64,000 bases of DNA. It comes from Polyangium mundeleinium. GTDB taxonomy: Bacteria > Myxococcota_A > Polyangia > Polyangiales > Polyangiaceae. The notes under the pieces were generated by a model. It ran no database searches and was not told where the DNA came from. It saw only the letters and a list, made by a program, of their open reading frames with translations. The translations under genes were made by a program, and so were the position numbers. The stretch is taken from assembly GCF_028369105.1 (NCBI RefSeq), contig NZ_JAQNDO010000001.1, positions 8,712,501-8,776,500 on the forward strand, given 5' to 3'. The stretch's first letter is position 1; each line of letters opens with the position of its first letter. Shown one piece after another: positions 5,950 through 8,536 of the stretch.

Positions 5950-6918
<969 letters not shown>

Positions 6919-7044
6919 CCAGCAGGCTATCGAGAAGCGCCGCGAGCGCCCTGGAGCTAGGAAGGAGGACGCAGGAATACTTCAGTATTCCGAGGACGAC
7001 GACCGACGATCCAGGGCGCGCAGCAAGCTTATCGATGGCCTGCT
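6919..7044. repeat. Three-helix palindromic element filling a convergent intergenic gap
   Basis: The whole gap between two convergent stop codons folds on itself. Outer stem: 6921-6938 pairs with 7027-7044, 18 positions with one mismatch and one G-T pair. Middle stem: 6946-6955 pairs with 7010-7019, 10 bp perfect. Inner hairpin: GGAATAC-TTCA-GTATTCC at 6974-6991. Two direct GAGGACG copies (6965-6971 and 6992-6998) flank the inner hairpin. The right arm contains the stop codon of the minus-strand gene. It could be a bidirectional terminator, a REP/MITE-like element or a structured RNA; I do not recognise the family. Confidence 0.7.
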
Positions 7045-8536
7045 AGCGGCGGCGGTTCTCGACGAGCGAGACCACGAAGTCGATGCCGCTGCGTGCGCGC
7101 TCGGGCAGAACGCCGTCGATTCGTTTGCCCAGGCTGTGCTCGAACTTCGCGCGCTCCTCGCGGAGCTCTTCCAGAGCCCTCGCGAGATCGCTCTTGGCGT
7201 TGGTCAGCTCACGATTTTCGTTTTGAAGCTCCCGAACCTTGCCGTCGAGCGCATGGTTTTCGGCGGTAAGCTCGCGAATCTTCCCGCCGAGCTCGGCTCT
7301 CCCCGTCGCCAAATCGCGCGTCTTCTCGTCGAGCTCGCCTCTCACGACCGCGAGCTCGCGCGCCTTCCCGTCGAGCTCGGCTCTCCCCGTCGCCAAATCG
7401 CGCGCCTTCTCGTCGAGCTCGCCTCTCGCATGTTCAAGCTCGCGCGCCTTGACGTCGAGCTCACCTCGCACGGTTTCAAGCTCGCGCGCCTTCCCCTCCA
7501 GCGCGCTCCTTAGCGACGCGATCTCCTTGCGGAGCGTATCGACCTCCTCCTTCGACGGCCCCTCGACGACCGGCGCCGCGGGCTCCGCGGCCGGCGGCTC
7601 CGGCGCCGCGGCCACCTCGACGACCGCCGCGCGCATCACCTCGCCCTCGGCCGTCCCGATCCAGATCGACGTCGCCCCCTTCGTCGTCGTCGCCAAAAGC
7701 ACCCGCGGCCGGCCTTTTCCGCCGGCCGCCGTCGTGCTCACCGGCGCCTTCGGCCCCTCCGGCGCTGCCAGCGACGCCGCGTCGTACAGCGCGAGCTTCC
7801 CGCCCGTGAACGCCACGATCACGCTCGTGTCCGTCACCGCGACGTCCGCGATCGGCGCGTCCAGCGTGACGAGCAACGCCTCCGCGCGCGCCCCGTCCCG
7901 CATCACCACGCAGAGCCCCGCGCCGCCGCGCTTGTACACCACGCAGTACACGCGACCTCCGCGCACCTGATCAAAGTCCGCCGCCTCCGCCGGCAACGTC
8001 ACGCGCGCGCTCGGCCCGCGCTCCGGCGCCGTGCCCGGATACACGCGGAGCTGCCCGCCGCCTTCCCCCTCGGCGAGCAGGTACGTCACGCCGTCCCCCG
8101 CGTCCCCCGCGCGCATGCGCCCCGGAACCTCGACCGGCCGCGCGCCCACCTCGCCACGACCGAGCGAGAGCGCGAGCAACTTGCCCTCATCGCTGATCGC
8201 GAGCGCGCCTTCCCCGGAAGGACGCGCGAGCAGCATCCGCATGTCGCGCACGATCTCGCGCACCCGGTAGGGATCGGCGAGCGGCACGGACCACACCGTT
8301 CCTTCCTTGTCACGCACGAGCGCCACGTCTTTCGACAGCAGCGCCACCTCCTGCGCGGTGATGCGAGGCAGATCGATCGCATCACCGCTCGTCGCCGCCA
8401 CGGGCGTGACCGCGATGCGGGCCGGCCTCGACGTCAAGAACGCGACGAGACCCGGGCCCCCGAGCCACGCGCAGGCCGCGATGCCTGCGCCGAGATCGAG
8501 GATCTTGCGCGGAGAATCCAGGTGCGAAATCGACAT
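7043..8536 (-). CDS. Hypothetical protein with propeller-like N-terminus and repetitive coiled coil
   Basis: 497 aa. The first 320 residues are rich in short beta-type segments with GxVWSVPL, SDEGKLLAL and GKLALYDAA motifs, suggesting a WD/propeller-like repeat domain. A Pro/Ala linker follows, then about 150 residues of coiled coil built from near-identical 14-residue blocks (RGELDxKARELxx type). At DNA level an 84-bp unit is duplicated (copies begin near 7295 and 7379). The short C-terminal tail ends ENRRR. The ATG at 8536 sits 7 nt after a TACGCT element, so transcription may be leaderless. I do not recognise a family; a scaffold or filament-like role is possible. Confidence 0.75.
   Translation of the reverse strand: MSISHLDSPRKILDLGAGIAACAWLGGPGLVAFLTSRPARIAVTPVAATSGDAIDLPRITAQEVALLSKDVALVRDKEGTVWSVPLADPYRVREIVRDMRMLLARPSGEGALAISDEGKLLALSLGRGEVGARPVEVPGRMRAGDAGDGVTYLLAEGEGGGQLRVYPGTAPERGPSARVTLPAEAADFDQVRGGRVYCVVYKRGGAGLCVVMRDGARAEALLVTLDAPIADVAVTDTSVIVAFTGGKLALYDAASLAAPEGPKAPVSTTAAGGKGRPRVLLATTTKGATSIWIGTAEGEVMRAAVVEVAAAPEPPAAEPAAPVVEGPSKEEVDTLRKEIASLRSALEGKARELETVRGELDVKARELEHARGELDEKARDLATGRAELDGKARELAVVRGELDEKTRDLATGRAELGGKIRELTAENHALDGKVRELQNENRELTNAKSDLARALEELREERAKFEHSLGKRIDGVLPERARSGIDFVVSLVENRRR

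Follow-up and report, generated by a model that had tools for sequence, protein, structure and literature searches.

A probable new family of MITEs in Polyangium and its relatives, often seated on stop codons and sharing a conserved folded core

Several families of short bacterial repeats combine an inverted-repeat structure with an effect on neighboring genes. The ERIC sequences of enterobacteria are 127 bp long, have TA ends, and have been linked to mRNA stability; together with IRU and RU-1, they show terminal inverted repeats, TA ends, duplication, an intergenic location, and a long stem-loop transcript (PMC2229807). According to the same source, the Correia or NEMIS elements of Neisseria are small TA-ended MITEs, whose RNA stem-loops have been proposed to act on neighboring mRNAs through RNase III. 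In Streptococcus pneumoniae, the BOX repeat supplies the stop codon to 36 of 58 overlapping genes, and SPRITE gathers near convergent 3' ends (PMC3049150). MITEs have been reviewed (PMC10969869) and REP sequences, which measure 20 to 40 bp, have been surveyed (PMC3733652). Among the myxobacteria, msDNA-like repeats have been reported for Nannocystis (Lampson and Rice 1997, as cited in PMC6868368).

The element described here, located in a window of 64,000 nucleotides of Polyangium mundeleinium DNA, shares with ERIC, IRU, and RU-1 a similar length (124 bp), terminal inverted repeats, TA ends with duplication (TA being duplicated at L029, L040, and L047), an intergenic location, and a predicted fold into a long stem-loop. 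Compared by description, it differs from ERIC in its phylum, in a core with invariant columns, in its several terminal repeats, and in its seating on stop codons. Like Correia, it is a small TA-ended MITE, but stop-codon seating sets it apart. The supply of a stop recalls BOX and the convergent 3' ends recall SPRITE, a likeness again of description; SPRITE resembles a Rho-independent terminator, whereas no GC-rich hairpin followed by a T-run was found here in 6700-7300 (mean of 0.4 in shuffles). It shares with REP and REPIN the character of dispersed palindromes with conserved motifs, but its unit is about 124 bp and its genome yielded no Y1 domain. Our verdict is that it represents a new family of MITEs, comparable in kind to ERIC, Correia, and BOX, whose folded core is conserved. 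We give a probability of roughly 77% to the full reading, namely, a MITE-like family that is mobilized in trans, is seated on stop codons, and has a folded plus strand that aids its spread or its tolerance. No description of the family was found in the accessible parts of the open-licence PubMed Central literature, and the part of PMC2267715 available to us mentions neither Sorangium nor Myxococcus.

The element lies between two convergent genes and consists of the following parts.

5950..6918, plus strand: left convergent gene, encoding a protein with an HD domain that is similar to the C-terminal portion of CCA tRNA nucleotidyltransferase; its TAA (6916-6918) is just outside the element.
6921..7044, plus strand (the orientation of model R1): the element, family A, AGCAGG...CCTGCT, 124 bp, with copies in its own genome and in relatives and a fold z of -8.8.
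6921..6938, plus strand: left arm of the outer stem, which is the left terminal inverted repeat; pairs with 7027-7044 and is like the ends of other family A copies.
6942..6948, plus strand: motif GCGAGCG, where the core begins at its foot; conservation is 90% or higher in 7 of 7 columns, and the first G is invariant.
6946..6955, plus strand: left arm of the middle stem, a 10-pair helix with changes on both sides in 8 of 10 pairs.
6956..6961, plus strand: motif GCTAGG, whose GG pairs in the model with the CC of the opposite motif; AGG, its last three columns, is invariant in 46 of 46 rows of alignment A1.
6974..6991, plus strand: apical hairpin GGAATAC-TTCA-GTATTCC, with changes on both sides in 7 of 7 pairs.
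7000..7009, plus strand: motif CGACCGACGA; in A1, all 46 rows agree at 6 of its 10 columns.
7010..7019, plus strand: right arm of the middle stem, the partner of 6946-6955.
7018..7025, plus strand: motif GCGCAGCA, in which conservation is 90% or higher at 6 of 8 columns.
7027..7044, plus strand: right arm of the outer stem, which is the right terminal inverted repeat; overlaps the CTA of the minus-strand gene by two bases.
7043..8536, minus strand: right convergent gene, a coiled-coil-like protein with matches below curated cut-offs only; its TAG stop (CTA 7043-7045) overlaps the right end of the element.

The strict gap between the TAA of the plus-strand gene and the CTA of the minus-strand gene runs from 6919 to 7042. 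An earlier sequence-only reading had described a gap of 126 bp filled by a palindrome; the filling was borne out by the element at 6921-7044, but the gap itself measures 124 bp. The predicted fold is a single long hairpin with small internal loops and an energy of -71.3 kcal/mol, a value reached by none of 200 dinucleotide shuffles (mean, -40.25; standard deviation, 3.53). The helices proposed in that reading were all recovered: the 18-position outer stem (13 consecutive pairs between 6921-6933 and 7032-7044, one G-A mismatch, and then 4 pairs), the 10-bp middle stem (6946-6955 with 7010-7019), and the inner hairpin of 7 pairs (6974-6980 with 6985-6991) closed by a TTCA loop at 6981-6984. The two GAGGACG copies are at 6965-6971 and 6992-6998. 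The right arm had been said to include the stop codon of the minus-strand gene; it ends on the C and T of CTA, and the third base (7045) falls outside. Rfam gave no matches for the window at gathering scores and none for 6850-7120 up to an E value of 10, while five other loci gave two matches, both far below gathering.

For its part, the left gene matched positions 210 to 452 of the 466-position CCA tRNA nucleotidyltransferase profile with 154.2 bits (cut-off, 438.8), as an HD domain without the nucleotidyltransferase part. The closest named relatives of the neighboring gene were from P. fumosum and Polyangium sp. strains (95 to 98% protein identity).

A mobile palindrome had been among the options raised from the sequence alone, with the lack of any second copy as the finding that would speak against it, and many copies were present in the genome and in its relatives. 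A BLAST search with 6915-7050 against the 13.25-Mb genome rendered 22 matches at an E value of 1e-11 or lower, itself included. Covariance model R1, built from the 46 copies of alignment A1, detected 37 matches scoring 57 bits or more, a lower bound given that 150 of 23,227 candidates were scored; they fall into three or more subfamilies, each with its own ends. A1 comprises the window copy and 45 of 46 copies picked from 83; near-identical copies and three half copies were left out by script and one tandem copy by hand. Copies were frequent in four of the five other genomes of the genus (G002 to G005), the best BLAST match in G001 having an E value of 0.004; a tally of 59 of 59 at an E value of 1 or lower reflects largely short matches. 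Across the order, R1 matched 60 of 144 genomes and 32 of 70 genera, G001 included, at an E value of 0.001 or lower, with at most 24 candidates scored per genome. Phylum-wide, at 1e-6 or lower, matches were found in 23 of 188 genomes (its own counted) and 18 of 136 genera; 12 of these 23 genomes lay outside the order and reached 37 to 50 bits only, and the five that were aligned keep the apical hairpin and not all of the inner motifs, so that they are no more than candidate members. Two copies stand in tandem in one genome (L096:138-364, G017).

Three families of ends were distinguished in the genome, family A with (T)AGCAGGCTGTTGAGAA, family B with (T)AGCAGCCTGTGGA, and family C with (TC)AGAGGGTGTTCCACAGG, and in all three the terminal inverted repeats are the outer stem. 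For nine insertions in the genome, the joined flanks were searched in the five other genomes of the genus, and five of the nine gave readable empty junctions with a short duplication. TA was single in the empty site and double in the filled one at L029 (empty in G005), L040 (G001), and L047 (G003 and G004); 2 bp are certain and up to 4 possible, CTAG being compatible at L029 and L047. Similarly, TCAG was single in the empty and double in the filled site at L161 (G003) and L165 (G002, where one base before differs). The empty alleles of L028, L036, L045, and L046 were too altered to be read. From the short duplications, TA or TCA(G), at empty sites, copies therefore insert as a MITE does. The element is thus mobile in the MITE sense, being short (∼124 bp), noncoding, and multicopy, with terminal inverted repeats and target-site duplication. 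At the L161 site, G002 holds a reversed family C copy (L208:1379-1503), so orientation is not strictly fixed; the opposite orientations in the two species may represent two insertions or an in-place inversion. In L207 (G003) and L198 (G002), which are orthologous to L028, most of the core has seemingly been lost and the outer arms kept.

The window copy has no TA in its left flank (CC|AGCAGG), only on the right (CCTGC|TA), and therefore its own target duplication is not visible. At the orthologous site in five other Polyangium loci (four strains, with two near-identical contigs of one strain) the element was absent in all five, and a different multi-hairpin repeat, recognized by eye and giving no model match, directly follows the orthologous stop codon.

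The enzyme responsible was sought in the same genome. One option in the sequence-only reading was a REP-like element. As a REP or REPIN, it would depend on a RAYT (Y1) transposase for its movement, and the palindromic, extragenic character of the repeats and their conserved motifs fit this. However, the Y1 transposase domain (PF01797) had no match at an E value of 0.001 or lower in the genome, which is 97.5% complete (control matches were obtained in 5 of 14 genomes), which makes a RAYT-driven REP unlikely; the unit length of about 124 bp and the short duplications seen at empty sites also speak against it. We consider this narrow option extremely improbable. In the genome, no full-length insertion sequence (IS) bounded by the ends of family A or family B was recognized: the end pattern of these families matched 31 sites, compared to 25 for the reversed control, and nine sites with two mismatches lay outside copies, two of which were read by eye and seven searched for an inverted partner, which none had.

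A transposase gene of the IS5 family (NF033580, E value of 4e-64; Pfam PF01609 and PF13340) lies behind an end, AGAGGGTGTTCATCAGG, that is close to AGAGGGTGTTCCACAGG of family C, and the same kind of end occurs on both sides of the IS5-family gene in partial copies of the genus (5' in L274 and 3' in L262 and L270). Since the ends of the IS of the genus begin with AGAGGGTGTTC.TCAGG, against AGAGGGTGTTCCACAGG in family C, an IS5-family transposase is the likeliest mobilizer of family C; no complete copy of this IS was seen in the genus, and the match between the ends is partial. Near one family A left half, the remnant of an IS5-family transposase gene lies about 70 bp away (L116/L271, G000:C1:8544138-8544358).

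Family C ends also flank a second repeat family that lacks the core (L212, G000:C1:7457597-7457745; L213, G000:C1, from 8015003), in which some four hairpins follow one another (CCGGGGTTTCACCCCGG, GGGGCTGTCCGCCCC, CCAGGGCCAGCCCTGG, and a last hairpin), and thus the ends alone seem to suffice for movement. Similar hairpin arrays (L285 to L289) fill the convergent site of the window in all five other Polyangium loci. Solo family C ends with neither a core nor a second end were also seen (L209, L210, L124:3302, and L125:1649); those in L124 and L125 directly follow TGA and are perhaps remnants or chance occurrences. One locus, L214, considered as an autonomous IS with the core in its end, was discarded: by eye, it is another IS (ends TAGAAGTCATCTCATAAACC) inserted into a family C copy. 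The truncated IS is nested at L214:1360-1520 (G000:C1 near 4498250), beside the TAG motif of the core.

A different origin would be retro-insertion of msDNA, or of something else made by the reverse transcriptase of a retron or group II intron. The genome contains 14 RVT_1 matches, Nannocystis is, as noted above, a myxobacterium with reported msDNA-like repeats, and selection on a plus-strand fold would suit such a product, but the nine loci holding 13 of the 14 RVT_1 matches (L120 to L128) gave a single model match, of 20.6 bits, and the short duplications, together with terminal repeats common to another repeat, point to a DDE enzyme. This origin is very unlikely. An apparent association between solo ends and reverse transcriptase genes (L124, L125, and L126) was likewise rejected, only single ends being present, with no second end and no core.

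Conservation of the fold was then assessed in A1. Standard pairs accounted for 85.8% of cells (73.5% in shuffles), and 35 of 42 pairs had changed on both sides, with 226 both-side cells compared to 65.7 in shuffles; none of 500 shuffles matched A1 on any of five pairing measures. When the pairing partners were slid by 1 to 3 columns, at most 41.1% were paired, a comparison in which the A1 structure is favored because it was taken from one member sequence and one helix was hand-adjusted. Compensatory stem changes, whose absence was to have counted against the earlier reading, are therefore strong in the 46 copies. Twelve columns were invariant in 46 of 46 copies, nine of them located in the AGG of GCTAGG and in CGACCGACG. 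In other genera, different outer arms surround one common core, and the arms are still complementary.

A G-U pair on the plus strand is an A-C mismatch on the minus strand, so selection on one strand shows as an imbalance between the two. We compared 127 model-aligned copies (130 minus 3 degenerate rows), grouped into 34 clusters by single linkage at 10 differing pairs. In the core helices, consensus pairs between subfamilies included 38 G-U and 4 A-C, against 15 and 11 within subfamilies (Fisher, 0.002). Thresholds of 6, 8, and 13 gave 50:6 versus 11:10, 43:4 versus 13:11, and 21:3 versus 15:13, respectively. With the outer stem included, the values at threshold 10 were 53:11 between and 39:24 within (Fisher, 0.01; only 0.05 at threshold 13), and hence the outer stem leans somewhat to G-U within subfamilies as well. 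As distinct combinations of pair and type, the core had 15 G-U and 4 A-C, and core cells of a MAFFT alignment, which is not fitted to the model, had 23 and 12. These P values are optimistic because clusters share ancestry. A mutational strand bias was rejected as the cause, since singletons in families A, B, and C were symmetric (14 C>T and 16 G>A). The excess between but not within subfamilies makes the plus-strand fold seem to matter for the lineage and not for each copy. In our reading of these sequences, inserted copies would drift, and the lineages that spread would be those with a well-folding plus strand, as RNA or as single-stranded DNA. A structured RNA, another early option, thus gains partial support from the covariation and the strand-specific G-U excess.

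The compensatory changes might instead arise without any function, from palindrome correction by template switching during replication. Such correction is known for quasi-palindromes, and outer arms that differ between genera yet stay complementary would be accounted for. However, nonpalindromic core motifs are kept, with their 12 invariant columns over 46 copies, and the excess of G-U over A-C between subfamilies would not be expected. This explanation on its own has little chance of being correct.

The position of the copies relative to genes was asymmetric. Among 117 copies, the stop codon of an inward-running gene sat on the right end only in 53, the left only in 11, both in 9, and neither in 44; coding was judged by a GC-position test, and these totals count orthologous copies more than once. 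Right-only and left-only counts were 24 and 9 of 54 for family A, 4 and 1 of 17 for family B, 12 and 1 of 15 for family C, and 13 and 0 of 31 for the remaining copies. Family A is less one-sided, with 20 and 9 when near-orthologous copies are left out (P, 0.06). The plus strand of the element is antisense to the gene whose stop sits on the right end. Agreement of copy orientation with replication varied with the origin chosen: it was 14 of 37 copies with the origin placed at the contig start and 13 to 26 with the origin placed elsewhere.

The stop is restored by the end of the element, T|AGCAGG reading TAG and family C duplicating TGA. In 14 of 15 family C copies a C precedes the stop (TGA, once TAA), and its target is therefore likely CTGAG; the target of families A and B looks like YTAR. 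The window contains 13 YTAR sites, of which 3 fall in stop codons and 6 in noncoding DNA, and 36 CTGAG/CTCAG sites, of which 2 and 9 do so, respectively, a small sample in which two YTAR sites belong to the element itself. These counts seem to go against target sequence alone as the cause of the seating. Target sequence plus the loss of gene-breaking insertions may explain part of it, the seating looking stronger than the two together would give, again from a small sample.

This placement raises the alternative of a host-useful two-way hairpin that ends or protects both mRNAs and is spread by occasional transposition, close to the two-way terminator once proposed for the locus. By composition-based gene calls, convergent genes flank 35 of 83 copies (the others being 17 and 16 in tandem contexts, 5 between divergent genes, 6 inside a predicted gene, and 4 with one neighbor missing), the site in the five other Polyangium loci holds a different multi-hairpin repeat, and among 80 loci with a relative of the left gene, two carry weak relatives of the element just downstream (L307, 51.7 bits; L294, in Sorangium, 37.5 bits). 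Against this, 6700-7300 has no T-run terminator, core substitutions within subfamilies (15:11) show no clear strand preference, so copies look little constrained, and sites are empty or otherwise filled in close relatives. We regard this alternative as rather unlikely. The two weak relatives, L307:3324-3440 in a Myxococcales MAG and L294:3502-3608 in S. cellulosum So0157-2, may mark a hot spot at the HD gene or be due to chance.

Under the MITE-like reading, a DDE transposase would move copies in trans. Landing on stop codons would be tolerated, as both genes stay intact, whereas insertions at other places would often be lost. The folded plus strand, as RNA or single-stranded DNA, would help the element to spread or be tolerated, a role suggested by core-stem changes that keep plus-strand wobble between subfamilies and not clearly within them. 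In the window, the two convergent transcripts would then each carry a long hairpin at the 3' end. Because the ends suffice for a MITE to move, a DDE enzyme alone does not explain why the core is conserved in genera whose ends differ. It is conceivable, though unlikely, that the core acts as a folded RNA or single-stranded DNA of one particular strand that is needed for propagation (e.g., a guide, cofactor, or intermediate). If so, the fold and not the ends would define this mobile element, which would be aimed at stop codons, carry several sets of terminal repeats, and be spread through much of the Myxococcota.

As a MITE-like family, the element adds a fold-conserved example for the Polyangiales, whose genomes are large and GC rich, and gives a clear example of insertion onto stop codons in which the inserted end supplies the stop again. 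The comparison of G-U with A-C, within and between subfamilies, constitutes a general test that may separate selection on the fold of each copy from selection on the fold of the lineage.
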